This document shows positions 3,735 through 43,199 of a stretch of 43,199 bases of DNA, piece by piece. Below the pieces are notes generated by a model. That model saw only the letters and a list, made by a program, of their open reading frames with translations, had not been told where the DNA came from and made no database searches. Each line of letters begins with the position of its first letter. Position 1 is the first letter of the stretch. Origin of the DNA: a virus; IMG/VR virus record IMGVR_UViG_3300024518_004174, positions 1 through 43,199 of that record. One strand, 5' to 3'. The position numbers and the translations under genes were made by a program.

Positions 3735-3743
3735 TGCTATAAT
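3735..3743 (+). promoter_or_regulatory. Extended -10 promoter
   Basis: TGCTATAAT is a perfect extended -10 element (TG-N-TATAAT). No good -35 box is visible at 17 bp, as is usual for extended -10 promoters. It lies about 40 bp upstream of the ATG at 3786 and could drive that gene and the structured RNA that follows. Confidence 0.65.
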
Positions 3744-3785: not shown

Positions 3786-4145
3786 ATGACCACCGCTAAT
3801 GAAACCATCACGGAGCTTGTTGCGAAGACCAAGGACGAAGGCGGCGCCGAAGTCACGATCAAGGCAGAGGTCAAGCTGTCAGGAGCCATCGAGGACCTTT
3901 TAGAAGATTATGGTGCTGACGCCGTCGCACATGCTGCCCGCTCGCACATCAAGCAATCGATGCTCAACTTGATGAAACGCTGCTGGATGACTGGAATGAA
4001 CAACGATGGCATTCAAGACGCCGTCGACAAGTGGAAACCTGGCACTCGGCGCTCCTCGATCGATCCCGTCGTCAAGGTCCTTAACAAGTTCGACGGGCTT
4101 ACTCCTGAACAGAAAGAAGAACTCCGGGAACGTCTCGCAGCCTAG
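3786..4145 (+). CDS. Hypothetical protein (119 aa)
   Basis: No family recognised. It has beta strands at residues 20-32 (AEVTIKAEVKLSG), a helical middle (AIEDLLEDYGADAVAHAARSHIKQSMLNLMK) and a C-terminal helix rich in Glu and Arg after a Pro-Gly turn. It is predicted to be a soluble cytoplasmic protein. It sits alone behind its own extended -10 promoter with the ribosome site AAGAAGGAAGC. Its stop codon lies in the loop of a seven-bp hairpin (4134-4152) that opens the structured RNA region, so the mRNA and the RNA may be one transcript. Confidence 0.65.
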   Translation: MTTANETITELVAKTKDEGGAEVTIKAEVKLSGAIEDLLEDYGADAVAHAARSHIKQSMLNLMKRCWMTGMNNDGIQDAVDKWKPGTRRSSIDPVVKVLNKFDGLTPEQKEELRERLAA

Positions 4146-4711
4146 CTGCGAGAAGGGTGCAGGGAGCATCGTAAGATGCAATGTCGTTCATCATGACATT
4201 GACAGTAGCTCAGAGGACAGAGCGTTCCCGAACGCGTGTGATGATCGTAAGTACGGAAAGGTCGTTGGTTCGAGACCAACCTGTCTGTTGCATGCGTACT
4301 GAGCATGTGATCCTGCATCCACCTTTTTGGTCGCCCCTGGCGACCAAAGTGCAGGCGGTGTGGAAAGCAGACACACGCGGGAGCACCACGGATGAATGCT
4401 CTGACCGAACAAAGACCTGAAATGCGGCAGGAAGGACACATAGTGGGACTCCAATGCCAATCAGGAAGAGCCAGAGTAGCGCCTGGCCCTGCACTTTGGC
4501 TGCCTCTGGCAGCCAATGGGATGCAACTAATGGGAGCCACGTGGGGCAAGCCGCAACTGTCCCTTCGATCTAGCAAGAGAGTTGCGTAGCTAGATCACTC
4601 TGATGAACAACAAGCTGGGAGTAGAGTGCCCCCACTCCTCCTCCCAGCCGGGGACTGTCTCGGTTAGGTCCCTTTCCTGGACAGTCCCCACCCTTCGTGC
4701 TTCGCACGAAG
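4134..4711 (+). ncRNA. Candidate large structured RNA (~580 nt)
   Basis: No convincing gene occurs here, but the stretch is dense with perfect helices. They are 4134-4140/4146-4152; 4166-4170/4175-4179 with a GTAA tetraloop; 4180-4185/4195-4200; a tRNA-like module 4201-4287; 4291-4295/4303-4307; 4312-4317/4350-4355 enclosing 4326-4335/4339-4348; 4358-4362/4372-4376; 4496-4504/4508-4516; 4567-4574/4589-4596; 4614-4621/4641-4648 with inner 4624-4628/4633-4637; 4650-4659/4680-4689; and 4693-4700/4704-4711. Length, phage context and the tRNA-like part recall the ornate large RNAs GOLLD and ROOL, but I cannot test that. The plus strand is preferred because of the upstream promoter. Boundaries are approximate. 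Confidence 0.6.
4201..4287 (+). other. tRNA-like module with enlarged anticodon arm
   Basis: Acceptor GACAG (4201-4205) pairs with CTGTC (4281-4285). Then come TA at positions 8-9, D stem GCTC/GAGC (4208-4211/4220-4223) with a GG-bearing loop, variable loop AGGTC (4259-4263), and T stem GTTGG/CCAAC (4264-4268/4276-4280) with the canonical loop TTCGAGA. The anticodon arm keeps TTCC/GGAA (4225-4228/4255-4258) but encloses about 26 bases instead of a normal stem-loop, including the self-complementary ACGCGT. The acceptor stem has only five sound pairs and no encoded CCA. It is likely a tRNA-derived RNA domain rather than a working tRNA. Confidence 0.55.
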
Positions 4712-4758
4712 AACAGGGAGCGCAGCGACCCCCACTGCAAGGAGCAAGGATAGATCTT

Positions 4759-5010
4759 ATGCGACATTGGTGGAAAATATGTCTAGCAGCAGGATTATTC
4801 GTAGGGCTTATTTTGATAATTTTATCGATTGAGGTTCATAGCGATAGAGCCACTAACGTCGCTATAGAGCCCAACTATTGTGCATTAGCCCCAGCAATGA
4901 TAGCGGTAAATATGGGCCTTTATGCGACGTACATGGCGCTGTGTTCAGCACAAAGGAGCAAGCAGAGTAAGGTAACTAGGGAACAAGCCAGTGGCCATCA
5001 ACGTAACTAA
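4759..5010 (+). CDS. Two-pass membrane protein (83 aa)
   Basis: Two hydrophobic segments (about residues 6-24, ICLAAGLFVGLILIILS, and 41-59, ALAPAMIAVNMGLYATYMAL) are separated by a short polar loop and followed by a basic, serine-rich tail. The ATG at 4759 follows AGGA (4747-4750) at eight bases and is the first start after the structured RNA; an upstream ATG at 4603 would read through RNA hairpins. Function unknown; a membrane-located host-takeover role is possible. Its base composition is more AT-rich than the region before it. Confidence 0.6.
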   Translation: MRHWWKICLAAGLFVGLILIILSIEVHSDRATNVAIEPNYCALAPAMIAVNMGLYATYMALCSAQRSKQSKVTREQASGHQRN

Positions 5011-7712: not shown

Positions 7713-7816
7713 TGACCACCACCCTAGCAGCAACCTTCATCATTGTCGGAGCAGTCCTAATATTCGTCGGTTGGGCACTCTCGATTAGAGATAGGAATAA
7801 TGAAAACAAAAAGTAA
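7712..7816 (+). CDS. Tiny single-pass membrane protein (34 aa)
   Basis: MTTTLAATFIIVGAVLIFVG begins a hydrophobic helix, followed by a charged tail (SIRDRNNENKK) that should stay in the cytoplasm. It fits between two genes, starting on the stop of the first (TAATG) and overlapping the second by 17 bases, which supports real translation. Function unknown. Confidence 0.5.
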   Translation: MTTTLAATFIIVGAVLIFVGWALSIRDRNNENKK

Positions 7817-8147
7817 ACAACTAGCTGTCCTTCTCCTCCCTGTTCGCACAGGGGACAAGGAGCTGGAGAAGGAACAGGTAGAGGTCGCAAACGCTGCTGC
7901 TGAACTCCTCATGCGTGGTGGCCTCCGGGCGATGTCTATAATGGCCACGAGCGATCAACTTGCGGCCATGAGCCCGCTCATTGAGAGCGATTGGGTCTAC
8001 TATCATGATCCTTTCCTCGACCGCGCGGACGTCATCTACATCCTGTGCCTGCCCGGCTGGGAAGATGATGAACTATGCAAGCGCGCGCTCGCCTATGGCG
8101 AAGGGCACAAGAAACCGATCGTCCTTATAAGTGTGGAGAATTTGTAA
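7800..8147 (+). CDS. DUF1937/nucleoside deoxyribosyltransferase-like protein (115 aa)
   Basis: The C-terminal half has RADVIYILCLPGWEDDELCKRALAYG, then KKPIVLI. That is the pattern of DUF1937/DUF4406 proteins: a beta strand, LPGWE, an acidic helix with A-x-A-x-G, and gKP. These are related in fold to nucleoside 2-deoxyribosyltransferases. Substrate unknown, possibly a nucleotide or its breakdown product. An N-terminal strand (QLAVLLLPV) and a helix precede it. It overlaps both neighbours. Confidence 0.6.
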   Translation: MKTKSKQLAVLLLPVRTGDKELEKEQVEVANAAAELLMRGGLRAMSIMATSDQLAAMSPLIESDWVYYHDPFLDRADVIYILCLPGWEDDELCKRALAYGEGHKKPIVLISVENL

Positions 8148-10882: not shown

Positions 10883-11280
10883 TGACCCGAGAACAGCTAC
10901 TTCGTGAGGCCATAGCGGTTAGTAAAGATCGCGCCAAGAGCCATGGAGCCTTTGATGAGGGAATGGAGAAGTTCGCAGAGTTTCTTACTGCCTACTTTAG
11001 AGATCGTAAAGGGATTTGCTTTGGCCCGTCCGAGGCTGCTGTCATTTGTATGCTTTTGAAAATCTCCCGCCTCGCGAATAGCGATCACTCGACCCCAGAC
11101 ACCTGGATCGACCTCGCCAACTACGCCGCCCAAGCTGGCCACTTAGCAATAACTATCCCCTCCTCATCAATAGCCGAAGAGCTGGATAAACTCTACGAAA
11201 CGAGCTGGGAAGAGGCAATAGGTAGTGTATCAACTATAACTCTGCCTGGAGCAACAGACGAGCCGAAGAATGCAGACTAG
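10882..11280 (+). CDS. DUF6378-like protein (132 aa)
   Basis: The order is TREQLLREAIAVSKDRAKSHG, an acidic helix, EAAVICMLLKISRLANS, then DTWIDLANYAAQAGHLAI. This is the pattern of the phage DUF6378 family, whose all-helical fold is thought to be related to MazG-like nucleotide pyrophosphohydrolases; that link is family knowledge of moderate strength. A dNTP-pool role would suit its place directly before the UDG-polymerase gene. The ATG at 10882 overlaps the upstream stop; a GTG three bases earlier is an alternative. It overlaps the next gene by 11 bases. Confidence 0.6.
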   Translation: MTREQLLREAIAVSKDRAKSHGAFDEGMEKFAEFLTAYFRDRKGICFGPSEAAVICMLLKISRLANSDHSTPDTWIDLANYAAQAGHLAITIPSSSIAEELDKLYETSWEEAIGSVSTITLPGATDEPKNAD

Positions 11281-12886
11281 TCCATGGTCTGAAGGCGATC
11301 CAGCGAAGGCTAAATTGTGCCTCATTGGTGAAGCTCCTGCGCGACAGGAAATGCGCCAAGGTCGACCATTCGTTGGCCCCGCAGGACAAGTTCTCAATGA
11401 ATGCCTAGCAGCCGCTGGCGTCTTGCGGCAGGAAGTGTATATAACGAATGTCTTTAAGACGCCGATCGCGTCGGGGACAAAACACGTCAAACCAAATGGA
11501 TGGACCTCTGAGGAGTTCCAAGTCGCCCGCTCTGATCTCTTGGAACGACTACGAGAGGTAGTCGCTCCCATCCTGGTCCCCATGGGCACAGTTGCTCTCC
11601 GTGCGCTATCCCCACAGACGGCCATTACTAAGTGGCGCGGATCGCCTATCTCAGACTGGAGTGTGCCGGGAAAGTTCACTATTCCAACCATTCATCCTGC
11701 TGCCGTCCTCAGAGGAGCCTTCATCTGGCGATACCTGATCATTGCCGATCTCAAGAAAGCCAAACGGTTCGCCCTCTCGAGCGAACACCGCGCGCCAGAG
11801 AGAACACTCTTCATAAATCCATCCTTCAAAGAAGTCATGCGTTTTCTCCACGTTCCACAGCCTAATATAAAACAAACAGTAGGCATCGATATCGAGACAA
11901 GTCGACATCAAGTTAGTTCAATTGCCTTCGCTCCACGTCCGAACTTAGCAATGTGTATACCGTTCATTCAGCTGGGTGGCGGGCTTTGTTGGTCAGTGGA
12001 GGAAGAGCAGCAACTATGGCATGCAATTGCAAGCATTTTAAAAAATCCGGCGATCGAAAAAATAGGACAAAACTTCTCCTTCGACATGTCCTTCCTCCTG
12101 CAACAGAACAAGATCCACACTGTCGGCCCCGTGCAAGACACAATGATCGCGCATCACATTCTTTATCCTGACTTTCCCAAGGGCCTCGATCTATTAACCA
12201 GCCTACACACAGACGAACCTTATTACAAAGCTGATGGCAAAATCTGGAACCGCCTAGGAGAACTCGACCAACATGGACTAGATAACTTCTGGCAATACAA
12301 CGCAAAAGATGCAGCTTGTACGCTGGAGATCTGGAACATTATGGAAAAGGAACTCCATGAGGAAGGCTATTGGGACCAGTACCGGCGCACGATGGACCTG
12401 CTTCCGGTCCTCATGTACATGGGACTAAGGGGAATGAAGGTCGACGTCGCTGCACTTGAGCAAACAAAGAAGGACATCCGCGCGAAGATCGAGGATGCCG
12501 AGCAGCGATTGATCGACGCAAGCGACCATCCCTTCAACCCACAGTCCCCGAAGCAATGCCAACAGTACTTCTACGAACATAAAGGCTACCACAAATACAC
12601 AAACCGTTCTACAGGTAAGGTTACCACCGATGACAAAGCAATGGCCTCGATCGCGAAGCGCTACAACGACCCTGTCGCGAGAATTGTTCAGGAAATTCGT
12701 TCCCTTCGGAAGTTCGAAGGAACTTATCTTGAGGCTGGGTACGACAACGACGAGCGACTGCGGTGTTCTTACAATCCTCGTGGGACGCGTAGCGGTCGTC
12801 TGTCCTCCTCCCAGACGATCTTTGGAACTGGACTAAATTTCCAAAACCTCCATCCAGAATTCAAGCACTTTCTTGTCGCCGACTAG
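11270..12886 (+). CDS. Uracil-DNA glycosylase fused to exonuclease and N-terminal part of family A DNA polymerase
   Basis: Residues 16-165 are a family 4-like uracil-DNA glycosylase (GEAPARQE at 20-27, GRPFVGPAG at 31-39, HPAAVLR at 142-148). Residues 203-350 are a 3'-5' exonuclease with all three motifs: DIE (207-209), N268...FD (271-272) and YNAKDA (343-348, Asp347). Then come the polymerase thumb and fingers entry, with SGRLSSSQ and GTGLNFQNLHPEFKHFLVAD as the last residues. The ORF stops here, just before motif A. Family members normally continue with a PG turn and the motif A strand; that part is at 14557-15474. UDG may exclude or repair uracil during synthesis. It should work only with the second half. 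Confidence 0.85.
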   Translation: MQTSPWSEGDPAKAKLCLIGEAPARQEMRQGRPFVGPAGQVLNECLAAAGVLRQEVYITNVFKTPIASGTKHVKPNGWTSEEFQVARSDLLERLREVVAPILVPMGTVALRALSPQTAITKWRGSPISDWSVPGKFTIPTIHPAAVLRGAFIWRYLIIADLKKAKRFALSSEHRAPERTLFINPSFKEVMRFLHVPQPNIKQTVGIDIETSRHQVSSIAFAPRPNLAMCIPFIQLGGGLCWSVEEEQQLWHAIASILKNPAIEKIGQNFSFDMSFLLQQNKIHTVGPVQDTMIAHHILYPDFPKGLDLLTSLHTDEPYYKADGKIWNRLGELDQHGLDNFWQYNAKDAACTLEIWNIMEKELHEEGYWDQYRRTMDLLPVLMYMGLRGMKVDVAALEQTKKDIRAKIEDAEQRLIDASDHPFNPQSPKQCQQYFYEHKGYHKYTNRSTGKVTTDDKAMASIAKRYNDPVARIVQEIRSLRKFEGTYLEAGYDNDERLRCSYNPRGTRSGRLSSSQTIFGTGLNFQNLHPEFKHFLVAD

Positions 12887-14247: not shown

Positions 14248-14560
14248 TATAGCAATGGCAATGTGGCTCTCGGAGCAAGTTCGAAGGAAGGGACCGAATT
14301 GTGTCCTCCGCGTCGGAGAACGATCAACTGACGTCGAACGACTAGCATGCGAGTACGGCGCACTGCAAGGTTGGTTGCATCCGGAGCGCGGACCGGAGTT
14401 AGAGTTCTTCAATTGCCCCGCCGGCATTTATTATCGATGGACCCAAGAAGGCCGAGCGCATTTCAAGAAATCAATCGACCACAGTTGGTTCCGACAAGGG
14501 CCTCTTCCTCATCATCTTACTACACCTAATAGAATTGCTCCAAAGAAGAAGAGCAAATGA
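14234..14560 (+). CDS. Hypothetical protein (108 aa)
   Basis: No family recognised. The ATG at 14234 follows GGAGGACACG. Helical N-terminus (NIAMAMWLSEQVRRKG), then CVLRVGERSTDVERLACEYGALQGW and an aromatic stretch (IYYRWTQEGRAHFKKS). The tail is very basic (NRIAPKKKSK). The basic ends could suggest nucleic-acid contact. It is the last gene before the polymerase catalytic half, whose ATG overlaps its TGA (ATGA), so the two are probably translated together. Confidence 0.55.
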   Translation: MAATNIAMAMWLSEQVRRKGPNCVLRVGERSTDVERLACEYGALQGWLHPERGPELEFFNCPAGIYYRWTQEGRAHFKKSIDHSWFRQGPLPHHLTTPNRIAPKKKSK

Positions 14561-15474
14561 CAAACCTCCTCTTCGAATTCGACAAGCGCCAAGCAGAATG
14601 GATCGTGGTCGCGTATCTTGCAAACGATGCAGCAATGATGGAGGTGCATAAGAATGGCCTTGATCCTCATACACGAACGGGACATCTCATCTCTTCCGTA
14701 CCGGAGGAGGTCATACGGCGTGAAAACAAACTATTGGGGCATACTACTGATCCTGGAGAGATTTTACGGCTCCGACAAGAACATGCGCCAGAGCTGCTCA
14801 CTAACAGTTCGTATTTTCTTCCCCGCACGATGTCGATTAGGCAAGCAGGGAAGAAGGCAAACCACGGGCTGAACTACAAGATGGGCTGGTATCGCTTTTC
14901 TCGGGAGAACGAACTCAGCGCGCCAGAAGCCAAACGCATTGTCAAGACCTACTACGATGTCTACCCCGGCGTCTCGCGCAACTACCATGATGGCATCAAG
15001 CAACAGCTAGCAAAAGACCGCACTCTGTGCGATCCTTGGGGGAATAAGCAGCGCTTCCTTGGGCAATGGGGGGAAGAGCTTTTTAAGCTCGCTTACAGTT
15101 GGCCCCCACAGTCGACAGTTGTCACCATTCTCAATGAGGGAATGAAAAAGATCTATCATGATGATAGTGCTGCACTAAAGGGCGTTGAGATCATGCAACA
15201 GGTCCACGATAGCGTCGTGCTTCAAGTTCCTGTAGATAACCTCGCGTGGGCAGCGGAAGCTTGCGTGCTCATCTATGAGCACTTGACACCAACCCTTCAA
15301 TGGCAAGGCCGTGAGTTTATCATTTGGACCGACCTAAAGATTGGCCCAAACTTAGGGGATATGATCGAGGTTCCTTTGGAGCCGAACCGTGAGGCCATGT
15401 ATTTACATCTAAAAGAAGCCACCGACGAAATGAAAGGGGTTCAAAGAGATGCTCGTATCAACATACAAATGTGA
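14557..15474 (+). CDS. Family A DNA polymerase, catalytic C-terminal half
   Basis: It begins at the motif A strand: LLFEFDKRQAEW, with Asp9 as metal ligand and Glu14. Motif B follows as RQAGKKANHGLNYKMG (Arg95, Lys99, Tyr107). Motif C is QQVHDSV (His217-Asp218). So all palm and O-helix residues are present, while thumb and exonuclease are in the ORF ending at 12886. Only a few residues of the loop before motif A seem to be missing between the two. The product is 305 aa and probably assembles non-covalently with the first half. Starts by overlap with the preceding stop. Confidence 0.85.
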   Translation: MTNLLFEFDKRQAEWIVVAYLANDAAMMEVHKNGLDPHTRTGHLISSVPEEVIRRENKLLGHTTDPGEILRLRQEHAPELLTNSSYFLPRTMSIRQAGKKANHGLNYKMGWYRFSRENELSAPEAKRIVKTYYDVYPGVSRNYHDGIKQQLAKDRTLCDPWGNKQRFLGQWGEELFKLAYSWPPQSTVVTILNEGMKKIYHDDSAALKGVEIMQQVHDSVVLQVPVDNLAWAAEACVLIYEHLTPTLQWQGREFIIWTDLKIGPNLGDMIEVPLEPNREAMYLHLKEATDEMKGVQRDARINIQM

Positions 15475-28377: not shown

Positions 28378-29343
28378 CTATGCCGTGTCAATGGTGTGCA
28401 TGATGCCTTGTGCTTGTCGGCGGCTAGTGACAAGCTCAAAGGCGCTAACGATTTGCGCGACCCGATCGTTGACCTGGTTGGGGGGCTCTTTCCAATCGGT
28501 CATGTCGAACCACACGGCGGGATCGTACACGAGCGTTAGAAAGCGCGTGTTGAGGAAGTACATCCTTGTGTCAGCACAGGCCGGGCTCCAGATAACAGGT
28601 AGCCCTTTGAATTCAATGTTCTGGAAGCCTGCATCGCCAAGGGTCTTATTAACGATCTGCTTCTGCTCTAGGACACTGTCTTCATAGTATTCATATGGAA
28701 GCTGGCCACCAACGATAATGTCCGGCATGTCCATGTTGAGGTTGTTGCTCACGTTGTTGACCATCGTGCGCATCTCAGGGATGCCCTGAGTGGCGAAGGA
28801 TAGACCGGTCATATTTTTAGTCTTATTCCTCCACCAACTATTGGTGGATTGAGGGATGCTACCGATGGTGGCGGCAGCTGTTGGATCATCGGCCACAAGG
28901 TCCTGGAGACCGTTCATGACGTTGCCAGTCTGAGCAGCAAAGATCGCAGTCTCGATGGTGTCGACAAGACTGTCTTCAGCATTCTGCAACTTGTTTGTTA
29001 CCAGTGAGGTAATTTCATGGCCCGCGCGGTTCTTCTGCTCATCAGTCATAAAGCGAACAATCGTGTCACTGATGTAGCGCCAATCGTATTGGGCTACAGT
29101 GAGGAACTCCTTGTCCGCCACAGGAACAGTTGAACCTTTCGTGATCCATGCAACGTTGTCGCTCTTTGCAAAGCGCAACGGGGTTTGAATGTTCCGACCC
29201 CCTCCTTGCGTCTCGAACCTACCTCCATTCCGCATCCAGAAGAAAAACGGAGTTGCTGTGAAGATATTATCGATCACCGTGTCTCGGCTACCTTGCCAAG
29301 TCGTGGTGTAGAGGTTGTCGAGTTGTTCGGTTAGGGAAACCAT
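28378..29343 (-). CDS. Major capsid protein (321 aa)
   Basis: HK97-fold-type major capsid protein by context and pattern. It has an N-arm (DNLYTTTWQGSRDTVIDNIF), an E-loop-like stretch rich in F and G (FFFWMRNGGRFETQGGGRNI), a long spine helix (LVTNKLQNAEDSLVDTIETA), and P- and A-domain strands (PDIIVGGQLPYEYYEDSVL, FKGLPVIWSPACADTRMYFL). It follows the scaffold gene after an 87-base hairpin-bearing gap. Copy number in the virion would be the highest, consistent with its own strong ribosome site AAAGGAGTTG. Confidence 0.75.
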   Translation of the reverse strand: MVSLTEQLDNLYTTTWQGSRDTVIDNIFTATPFFFWMRNGGRFETQGGGRNIQTPLRFAKSDNVAWITKGSTVPVADKEFLTVAQYDWRYISDTIVRFMTDEQKNRAGHEITSLVTNKLQNAEDSLVDTIETAIFAAQTGNVMNGLQDLVADDPTAAATIGSIPQSTNSWWRNKTKNMTGLSFATQGIPEMRTMVNNVSNNLNMDMPDIIVGGQLPYEYYEDSVLEQKQIVNKTLGDAGFQNIEFKGLPVIWSPACADTRMYFLNTRFLTLVYDPAVWFDMTDWKEPPNQVNDRVAQIVSAFELVTSRRQAQGIMHTIDTA

Positions 29344-29430
29344 CTACAACTCCTTTGAGTGCTTCGCACTCACGCGCAGGCGCCCTGCGCCTGCATGGTT
29401 AAAGTTCCAAGGGTGCGAAGCACTCTAGGA
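29344..29430 (-). other. Hairpin cluster between scaffold and capsid genes
   Basis: Three GC-rich hairpins fill this gap: 29357-29371 (GAGTGC-TTC-GCACTC), 29376-29394 (GCAGGCGC-CCT-GCGCCTGC) and the core GTGC-GAA-GCAC at 29413-29423, the inverse of the first core. They could be mRNA processing or stability elements that set the scaffold-to-capsid ratio, or pause sites. No terminator U-run follows. Confidence 0.55.
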
Positions 29431-30165
29431 TTAGCTCCTGCCCCGAGCGAGATGGGGCATGGTTTCTTGAAGAGCCGCATTGGCAGCGTCAGCTATGGAC
29501 ATGTTTGCGGCACGTCTCGTTTTGCCGCCCGTTGGAGTGAAGCCACCGAAGAGTTTCTCAGGACTGCCGACTTCGTCTTCGTCCTTTGGCTCTTCTTTCT
29601 TCGGTGGGTGGTATTTTGCATTCAATTTCTCTGCCTTCTCAGGATCGCTCTTGCGCGCCTGCTCAAGAACAATTTGTGGATGGTTAGTCAGGCCAGGGAT
29701 AGCTTTGATAACAGTTGCCATTTCATCGAGCCAGTCATCGAAGTCCGGCGTGTTCTCCCGAAGATCCACATAGGCTGCATTGACCTCAGTTGCGAGCGCT
29801 TTGTCTTCGCGCTCCTGCCGCGCACTCTCCAACTTCCGCTCTGTCTTTGTAGCAACATCAGTGGTCATCTTTGTGAAGGCAGTCACTAGTTGAGCGTTGT
29901 CGGCCTCTTCGATGTTCTCCGGGAGACCGTAGTTCATCCACGGTTTATCGGCGTTTGGATCAACAGGTGCCGGCGTCGGAACAACTACTGGAGCCTTCTC
30001 CCCAACAGCCTTCTCCACCGCGCCAAGTCGTCCATTGAATGTGGTCAATGTATTCGTTAGTCCTTCAAGGGTCTCGATGAGTTTAGATTGATCTGCCGCC
30101 GGCGTCTTCTCCGTCGACTTCCCACCCTCACCAGGCTCCTTGCTAGCTACAATAACTTCAGCCAT
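29431..30165 (-). CDS. Capsid scaffolding protein (244 aa)
   Basis: An acidic, low-complexity N-terminus (KEPGEGGKSTEKTPAADQSK), then a coiled coil (TLTTFNGRLGAVEKAVGEK), Pro/Ala linker (VVVPTPAPVDPN), a long charged helix (ERKLESARQEREDKALATEV) and a Lys/Arg-rich end. This is typical of podovirus scaffolds just upstream of the capsid gene. It should guide procapsid assembly and leave before DNA packaging. It overlaps the preceding gene by eight bases. Confidence 0.65.
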   Translation of the reverse strand: MAEVIVASKEPGEGGKSTEKTPAADQSKLIETLEGLTNTLTTFNGRLGAVEKAVGEKAPVVVPTPAPVDPNADKPWMNYGLPENIEEADNAQLVTAFTKMTTDVATKTERKLESARQEREDKALATEVNAAYVDLRENTPDFDDWLDEMATVIKAIPGLTNHPQIVLEQARKSDPEKAEKLNAKYHPPKKEEPKDEDEVGSPEKLFGGFTPTGGKTRRAANMSIADAANAALQETMPHLARGRS

Positions 30166-34755: not shown

Positions 34756-36377
34756 GTCAGAATGTACCTTATATGGCCAAGGGCCTCACTGTCGGGATCA
34801 GGTCCCCCACTTGTGAGACGCACATAGATGGTACTAAAGCCAAGGGTGTCGTTGTCCCCGTAGTCGTACTCACCTGCGGAGAGACTTCCTACAGTGCCGC
34901 TGGACATTGCTGTCGCGTCGTCCTCGTGGACGCTTGCAACTGCTGCAATGCTTGGATCTCCACCTGCAACAAGTTCTACATAGTACTCGTTAGTGCCACT
35001 TCCTGAGACGACCCAACGAAGAGCGGCCGTCCGCGCACTAGTTCCAACAAGATATTGGAGAGTACTAGAGGCAACATCATGCCATGGGGATGTTGCTGCC
35101 CCTCCATTTTTGTATAGCAATAGATCCAAGTCTGTATCGTAAATTAATGAGCCCGCTCCAGCGATTGTCTTGCCATCCACTCCAGCATTGATAGTTCCTA
35201 TTGAGGCGTCACGGATAGAGGAGCCTACTTTATTCACGATTTGTGTAGGATGTGAGCGCTCAGGCACTTGAAATTGGGCCGACCCCAAGTTCCTCATTGT
35301 TGGAGCATCGCCTCCAAGGGCGACAAATTGTCCGCCACTTGTTTTGTTGTTGAAATCAAAAATCTGACTTCCGCCAATCTGACAACCTTTCAAATAGATA
35401 TGGCATTGATTGCTGTGGACTTGCGCTCGCACGCCCAGGGGATCTACAGCAAGTTGGGCATCGCTTGCTGTGCTGAAGAGGTAGTTATTTAGCATCACTT
35501 GGCAACGAGTTACTGGCGTATCACTTTGAATTCCGCCAAGGTACATATCAGGGGAGCCATCGACATCTCCGTTCTTTTCAAAGTGTCCGCTGAAAATATC
35601 GAAAAGGAAGCCGCCCTCTAAGTACATCCCATAACTATCACAACTTTCGATAATTAAGCTGTGGGCGGAAACGGGGTATTGAGTTGTGTTGTTCTCAGTT
35701 CTCCATTTAATGCCTACGTTGACATTAGATATTCGAAAGCGAACTAGTTGGTTATGGAGAAGCGCTGTCCCACCGTCTCGTGGGGTTCCAGCATCAGCAA
35801 GGAACCCTACTTGGCTGGTACCGGAACCTGAGCCATTTATTAAAATATCCTCCCATCGTAGCCGTTGACAGTTTGCATCATCGTCATAGTATATTGAAGC
35901 AGTAGCTTGGGAGAGAAAAAACATGTTACGGATTAAGGAGAGATCTCCTCCGACGGTAGTGTCAATGTGTATTCCGTATTTTCCACCTTCGATTTGGAAA
36001 CCGTCTATTTCAAGTTGGTTCCCTTGGATCGCGGAAAGACCCGTGTAGGATTGGACTTTGATAACGGATTTTGTGTTGTCACTGCACTTTAGATGGATCG
36101 CGGAGCCAGCGGCGTTCCCCGCGCGCGAGCCCATTCCCATTAATGTTATCGCTCGATCGATAACGAGCCCACCATCTACGCCGTAGAATTCATTCCTTGG
36201 ACGCGGGAAGACAAGCATTCCACTAGTCGGTGTTGCGTCTATGTCAGCTTGGATGGTATCTGTTTCATCACTTTCGTCACCGATGGCACTACACATGCGG
36301 ACACCATCAGCGAGGGGCTCACGGATACCTATTCCAACAATGTTTCTTGCAGGACGGCTGGGAGCAGGATCAGGCAT
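34752..36377 (-). CDS. Tail spike with parallel beta-helix (541 aa)
   Basis: The ATG at 36377 is used since AAGGAG lies ten bases upstream. After a short N-terminal part that may attach to the virion (NIVGIGIREPLADGVRMCSA), residues ~60-400 repeat a beta-helix pattern (LEIDGFQIEGGKYGIHIDTT, LSLIRNMFFLSQATASIYYD, LRWEDILINGSG, FRISNVNVGIKWRTEN). A C-terminal beta domain closes it (EYYVELVAGGDPSIAAVASV). Such spikes bind or cleave surface polysaccharide; no catalytic residues can be assigned. It sits between spanin and terminase genes. Confidence 0.75.
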   Translation of the reverse strand: MPDPAPSRPARNIVGIGIREPLADGVRMCSAIGDESDETDTIQADIDATPTSGMLVFPRPRNEFYGVDGGLVIDRAITLMGMGSRAGNAAGSAIHLKCSDNTKSVIKVQSYTGLSAIQGNQLEIDGFQIEGGKYGIHIDTTVGGDLSLIRNMFFLSQATASIYYDDDANCQRLRWEDILINGSGSGTSQVGFLADAGTPRDGGTALLHNQLVRFRISNVNVGIKWRTENNTTQYPVSAHSLIIESCDSYGMYLEGGFLFDIFSGHFEKNGDVDGSPDMYLGGIQSDTPVTRCQVMLNNYLFSTASDAQLAVDPLGVRAQVHSNQCHIYLKGCQIGGSQIFDFNNKTSGGQFVALGGDAPTMRNLGSAQFQVPERSHPTQIVNKVGSSIRDASIGTINAGVDGKTIAGAGSLIYDTDLDLLLYKNGGAATSPWHDVASSTLQYLVGTSARTAALRWVVSGSGTNEYYVELVAGGDPSIAAVASVHEDDATAMSSGTVGSLSAGEYDYGDNDTLGFSTIYVRLTSGGPDPDSEALGHIRYILT

Positions 36378-42690: not shown

Positions 42691-43085
42691 ATGGCAACTC
42701 ATAAGGAAGTAGCACAAGCATGGGCCGCAGGACAGGTCGTGCGCGCCGGGGCTTTAGCATGTATCATGAAGATGATGTTATCTATAGCTACGAAACGCAC
42801 TTTCCAATCGCCCGTTTCATCAATCCGCCACTGGCGGATCGCACCGCTAAGTCGATCGTCTTGATTACATCTCGTCGCTACAGTGTCTCGACGGCTAAGC
42901 ATGTGGGAATTGTGTGGCGCGCGCTGGACTATGGTCATGGCTCACGTGAGGTGATTAGGGTTGATAACGTGATGGCCACGAGTATGGCAGAGCATGAGGG
43001 CAATTTGGACGGGCTGCGACAGGAAGCCGACGAGTGCCGTCTCAGGGCATCCCGCGCCTGTCTGCACTCGCACAGTACTCTCTAG
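42691..43085 (+). pseudogene. Early small protein gene with apparent frameshift
   Basis: ATG 42691 follows AAGGGAC (42676-42682) and opens MATHKEVAQAWAAGQVVRAG, the usual start of a small phage protein family (T/H-x-E/Q-V-A-x-A-W-A-x-G). This frame then loses family character, while the next frame continues FSMYHEDDVIYSYETHFPIA, then YSVSTAKHVGIVWRALDYG and VMATSMAEHEGNLDGL, its usual body. Adding one G in the GGGG run (about 42748-42751) gives one continuous protein of about 131 aa ending at 43085. Probably a sequence indel; programmed shifting is possible. A hairpin (42823-42839) lies inside. Confidence 0.6.
42823..42839. repeat. GC-rich triloop hairpin
   Basis: ATCCGCC-ACT-GGCGGAT is a perfect seven-bp inverted repeat with a three-base loop within the frameshifted early gene. 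Confidence 0.65.
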
Positions 43086-43199
43086 ACCGCGCGGCGCTCT
43101 GTGACCGCACAGCGGCCCGCTACCGCGCCTTGTTTTGCCCTGCGGACAAAATCTCCTGACCGAGCCGCCTCTGGCGGCGCATAGTGCCAAGCGTGCGGC
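43074..43199. repeat. Terminal direct repeat, right copy
   Basis: Identical to 9-134. The base C at 43073 has no counterpart in the left copy (one-base indel against positions 8-9). The stop codon of the preceding gene lies inside it at 43083-43085. Confidence 0.9.

Follow-up and report, generated by a model that had tools for sequence, protein, structure and literature searches.

What occupies the 613 bases between two small genes near the left end of this phage genome? The window, by which we mean the whole stretch of DNA that was analyzed, has 43,199 bases and is the entire IMG/VR record IMGVR_UViG_3300024518_004174; a 126-base direct repeat with one copy at each end (9-134 and 43074-43199) indicates that the phage genome is probably complete. 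The gap, which separates the gene at 3786-4145 from the gene starting at 4759, is non-coding. All open reading frames within 4134-4758 have a negative codon-usage score (-0.08 to -0.23), whereas the main genes score +0.06 to +0.22 and the upstream gene +0.167, and a Pfam search of these frames returned no significant match. The original prediction had proposed that 4134-4711 holds a structured RNA candidate and no convincing gene, in an early region behind one small gene, and both parts of that claim are upheld.

The region is marked by its density of strong helices. We counted 10 perfect hairpins of at least 7 bp in 4134-4711, where dinucleotide shuffles gave 0.93 on average (maximum 5); the corresponding numbers were seven versus 0.24 for at least 8 bp and three versus 0.065 for at least 9 bp, which bears out the strong, mostly perfect helices first noticed by eye. 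This is the densest 578-nt tile of the genome, the best tile elsewhere having six perfect hairpins and the mean being 1.5, and the mean 200-nt fold z-score reaches its genome-wide minimum (-2.77) in the 500-nt block from 4126. Further local fold minima occur at 7801-8000 (z = -5.8, within a probable gene) and at 29251-29525 (z = -5.3, around the capsid gene start). Over the whole window, perfect hairpins with loops of exactly 3 nt are in excess, with 24 such hairpins compared with 1-8 for each other loop size.

Folding of 4134-4760 is strong on both strands (z = -6.7 on the + strand and -5.8 on the - strand), and domain III alone folds better on the - strand (-6.4) than on the + strand (-5.4). 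We assign the RNA to the + strand because of its tRNA-like module, its GNRA loop and the direction of the genes, the energy being near-equal on the - strand. Palindromes are DNA signals in some phages, and the similar fold strength of the two strands would suit hairpins that act as DNA in a replication origin, a packaging site or a recombination site. We consider such a role very improbable, given that the tRNA-like module and the GNRA loop are single-strand RNA features lying on the coding strand and that the cumulative GC skew has no marked change at the site.

Table 1. Features of the window in and around the non-coding region; RNA helices, loops and domains are predicted.
Feature	Position	Strand	Remarks
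Early genes	from left end	+	
Extended -10 element TGCTATAAT	3735..3743	+	probably drives gene 3786-4145 and, via read-through, the RNA
Small conserved phage protein, 119 aa, WKPG motif	3786..4145	+	probably co-transcribed with the RNA
9-bp hairpin spanning the small gene's stop codon	4133..4153	+	5' edge of the RNA
P1, 5' strand GGGUGCAGG	4155..4163	+	pairs with 4312-4320, 9 bp including one G-U; closes domain I
P2 hairpin, 5 bp, GUAA (GNRA) tetraloop	4166..4179	+	GCATC-GTAA-GATGC; sequence and folds
P3 hairpin	4180..4200	+	AAUGUC...GACAUU
tRNA-Arg-derived, non-decoding tRNA-like module	4199..4289	+	ARAGORN, Rfam, folds
Expanded anticodon loop, 26 nt	4229..4254	+	contains ACGCGU and CGCGUGUG; CGCGUGUG complementary to 4372-4379
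Hairpin 3' of the tRNA-like module	4287..4311	+	CAUGC...GCAUG core
CCUGCAUCC, P1 3' strand	4312..4320	+	also in domain II closing helix (4314-4320/4519-4525)
Domain II, near-symmetric junction	4314..4525	+	hairpins 4326-4348, 4496-4516; inner stem 4349-4355/4488-4494
Domain III, hairpin series	4552..4711	+	4567-4596, 4614-4648, 4650-4689, 4693-4711; without U tract
Downstream gene, small, probably membrane protein	4759..5010	+	ORF list; preceded by AAGGAG Shine-Dalgarno; codon score weak (-0.09)
ssDNA-annealing, polymerase and primase genes	8.7-17 kb		
Structural and packaging genes		-	

The tRNA-like module named in the original prediction is recognized by two programs. ARAGORN calls it at 4198-4289 as 'tRNA-???', and the Rfam tRNA model scores 32.6 bits at 4199-4288 in a permissive search (gathering score 29), a match that a fast-filter Rfam search of the whole window missed. 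Its predicted parts are an acceptor of 5 bp (4201-4205/4281-4285), a D arm (4208-4223), an anticodon stem with 4-bp strands (4225-4228/4255-4258) and a T arm (4264-4280). The D-half corresponds to the one of tRNA-Arg(CCG) from Lachnospiraceae and other Eubacteriales, and both the T arm and the D arm are intact. The spacing between these arms is 43 nt, compared with 26 nt in 106 of the 112 phage tRNAs with an identical D arm. The anticodon loop is 17 nt over length rather than a 7-nt loop, begins C-G-A and lacks U33, and the acceptor falls short of 7 bp, its five pairs being followed by U-U and U-G without a CCA. Because of the long loop, the missing U33, the weak acceptor and the missing CCA, the module should not decode. 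A functional tRNA with an intron was considered and set aside, since neither U33 nor a standard loop remains.

Folding suggests that the RNA is built of three domains, whose exact junctions we infer from the models. Domain I (4155-4320) is closed by P1 (GGGUGCAGG/CCUGCAUCC), a helix that encloses a junction where the GUAA hairpin and a second hairpin precede the cloverleaf and a third one follows it; the GTAA tetraloop had been picked out in the original prediction and does cap a 5-bp stem. In this model the tRNA-like module fits a five-way junction closed by the 9-bp helix. Forcing the cloverleaf costs 1.9 of 64 kcal/mol in domain I and 5.7 of 266 kcal/mol in the whole region. The same CCUGCAUCC is shared by the closing helices of domains I and II, which are mutually exclusive. 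P1 forms with probability 1.0 if domain I is folded by itself; in the whole-region ensemble, in which domain II competes, this falls to 0.02. This exclusion and the low probability make the domain I model uncertain, and the alternative pairing of CCUGCAUCC could point to a switch, or the energy model may simply be wrong here. Domain II is predicted to carry two similar hairpins of 9-10 bp on either side of its inner stem, and the segment 4308-4527 folds with z = -4.8. No terminator or processing signal was found that marks the 3' end of the RNA.

We considered how the region would be transcribed. The original prediction described a perfect extended -10 promoter, of which the extended -10 element stands, TGCTATAAT (TGNTATAAT) occurring as a single copy in the genome with both strands counted, and a recognizable -35 near it was not found. 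In several related phages a TTGACA-type promoter-like sequence, read by eye, lies ahead of the homologous gene, and the RNA probably sits behind a strong early promoter. By tblastn, the WKPG protein was matched in 13 related phage loci, with E <= 0.005 for 11 of these. Relatives that keep this gene have a terminator-like hairpin directly 3' of it, often with a U tract, and their next reading frame begins about 50-160 bases past the gene, compared with 613 here. The hairpin directly after the small gene in relatives suggests that the RNA is an addition in this phage.

This location also suits a cis element, that is, a long structured 3' untranslated region of the small early gene that shields the mRNA of this gene from exonucleases and takes the place of the terminator found in relatives; the tRNA-like module might then be a site of processing by RNase P or RNase Z. 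The region lies directly behind the small gene, its first hairpin spans the stop codon, and a series of several more hairpins precedes the next gene. In related phages the same place is taken by just one hairpin, which a U tract often accompanies. However, some 600 nt in three domains far exceed what a stabilizer needs, and an acceptor of 5 bp plus U-U, without CCA, makes processing by RNase P or RNase Z doubtful. We regard a cis element as possible but doubtful.

Homologs of the RNA were sought by several routes. By blastn, the region matched nothing in phage and plasmid collections. The upstream protein as a lone probe of viral contigs returned nothing, and neither did the DNA polymerase as a lone probe; an alignment of the DNA polymerase, used as the probe, recovered 80 relatives with up to 41% identity. 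In the window the DNA polymerase is encoded in two parts (11270-12886 and 14557-15474) with about 1.7 kb of other open reading frames intervening, and a split DNA polymerase is also present in Vibrio phage VS-ABTNL-3. Among the approximately 80 polymerase relatives, the RNA was absent by blastn or nhmmer, and none has a comparably hairpin-rich stretch. When 50 of the polymerase-related records were searched whole, three had any tRNA match, and a covariance model of the RNA (R1) found no match in a search run without a positive control; on the loci tried, the model matched chiefly via its tRNA part. A pattern for the domain II hairpin gave 0 hits.

Patterns for the tRNA-like part matched many long-spacer phage tRNAs in viral contigs, none of them with the rest of the RNA. 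These long-spacer matches include both ordinary tRNAs whose variable arm is long and tRNAs with expanded anticodon arms. Matches to the D-arm pattern were ordinary tRNA-Arg in genomes and were normally spaced in nearly all viral cases. The homologs that the original prediction had called for were thus not recovered by blastn, nhmmer, patterns or a covariance model among the records searched, which suggests that the element is lineage-specific.

Other unusual tRNA-like genes were also noticed. Viral contigs L087-L206 contain many in which the anticodon arm is lengthened and the tRNA score is 33-56 bits (for example L089:5464-5561, L148:5787-5894(-), L163:4270-4370 and L128:12571-12680); an insert motif, GCATTTGCG, is common to L104, L127 and L138, and part of this group consists of ordinary tRNAs that have a long variable arm. 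A related phage (L210:1301-1502) has a tRNA-Leu-like sequence split by about 150 bases, with an odd-armed tRNA-like gene in the same stretch, and a tmRNA gene adjoins a tRNA array in another phage contig (L193:5687-6059, - strand).

The failure to find homologs would also fit debris, in which a decayed tRNA-Arg gene and terminators or DNA palindromes were gathered by recombination and have no RNA function. The acceptor and anticodon arm of the module are damaged, both strands show an excess of folding, and the genome elsewhere is also rich in perfect hairpins with 3-nt loops. Ten intact perfect stems and intact T and D arms would be unexpected after long decay, and this compact 43-kb genome retains 613 bp where relatives have about 50-160 bp; we therefore think debris unlikely.

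An arrangement resembling that of the window RNA is present in a Streptomyces-type phage. In this phage record (L208), positions 880-1500 form an unannotated, non-coding region of about 620 nt with a fold z-score of -7.1, for which folding predicts a tRNA-like cloverleaf that has a lengthened anticodon arm and lies between long hairpins; an ordinary tRNA-Glu adjoins it. A 686-nt gap in phiSASD1 (35536-36221; L218 1985-2670), also unannotated, structured and non-coding, resembles the L208 region in its first ~200 bases and does not keep the tRNA-like part, and covariation between the two was read from two sequences and is unreliable past the first ~200 nt. Outside the tRNA part, the L208 region and the window RNA have no sequence similarity, and the arrangement is an analogy and not homology.

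Taken together, the observation behind the original prediction is confirmed and its interpretation partly supported, and the region is a good candidate for a lineage-specific large phage RNA, as judged from the folding models. We consider it likely that a real structured RNA is made by the phage. Our best explanation, to which we give a probability of roughly 0.45, is that the region encodes a lineage-specific structured non-coding RNA of about 580 nt that acts in trans as a scaffold and shows a tRNA mimic to a host factor. An early transcript from the extended -10 promoter would carry the WKPG gene and the RNA, and domain I would present a captured tRNA-Arg whose decoding loop has been lost. 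As a stable scaffold acting in trans, the RNA might then display this mimic to a tRNA-binding host factor, for example as bait for a tRNA-targeting defense enzyme; the decoy mechanism in particular is a guess, and we hold it to be doubtful. Only tentatively would we propose a new class of RNA, in which a host tRNA was captured, stripped of its anticodon loop and built as a mimic into a multi-domain phage RNA scaffold. If this is true, the analogous layout in an unrelated Streptomyces-type phage would mean that the design arose more than once. With a non-decoding tRNA embedded in it, such an RNA would be directly open to functional study, as tRNA-binding partners and tRNA-targeting defenses could be tested, and it would suggest that more such RNAs are hidden in unannotated gaps of phage genomes.

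To our knowledge, few large ornate RNAs of phages have been described so far, none with a known function. The original prediction had likened the region to GOLLD and ROOL and to their setting near tRNAs. A covariance-model search with the Rfam models matched none above chance in the region except tRNA, and those for GOLLD and ROOL gave no match up to E = 10; the 43,199-base phage record contains no tRNA other than the tRNA-like module, which leaves a setting near tRNAs unsupported. The available part of one report describes GOLLD as a large structured phage RNA, some members of which hold a tRNA in a linker, which is like the window RNA, and gives a 659-nt ROOL example, similar in length and also in a phage setting; in that part, the function of both is stated to be unknown, and the features given for ROOL do not include a tRNA-like module (PMC12286853). 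Unlike GOLLD, the window RNA has no tRNA island and no known conserved 3' region and is shorter than the at least 800 nt of many GOLLD members, and unlike ROOL it is not near tRNA arrays.

The size near that of ROOL, the phage setting and a tRNA embedded as in some GOLLD linkers do recall a self-assembling large ornate RNA that forms an RNA-only cage, with the tRNA-like module as cargo or linker. Long-range complementary 8-mers also exceed expectation (nine versus 2.2 in mononucleotide shuffles), and these could be intra- or intermolecular. Such a cage analog is quite unlikely, as the GOLLD and ROOL models are unmatched and ACGCGT (4232-4237), on which the original prediction had based possible dimer contacts, is present, but the region has five self-complementary hexamers in all, so that this one is not notable alone; the idea of dimers rests on this one palindrome, without independent support.

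A tRNA mimic displayed on a scaffold, the reading that we prefer, also invites comparison with tmRNA, which has a tRNA-like module within a longer RNA. In the window RNA the module has a full D arm and no tag frame was found, and neither the Rfam model nor ARAGORN reports a tmRNA. The phage tRNAs that counter tRNA-targeting defenses offer a further comparison. Altered anticodon loops in phage tRNAs have been proposed as a means of resisting anticodon nucleases (PMC10264068). Against tRNA-depleting defenses, phages are rescued by phage-encoded tRNA-Tyr and tRNA-Lys; these tRNAs keep their anticodon, a change of which abolished rescue in one tested case (PMC11555353). That published protective tRNAs keep their anticodon, with this one loss of rescue, argues against simple substitution by the window module, though not against a decoy, and a non-decoding mimic would have to act differently from the rescuing tRNAs, at a guess as bait. 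Like these tRNAs, the module is tRNA-derived, encoded by a phage and altered in its anticodon loop (PMC10264068, PMC11555353), whereas it differs from them, which are free tRNAs, in its 26-nt loop and in forming part of a long RNA.
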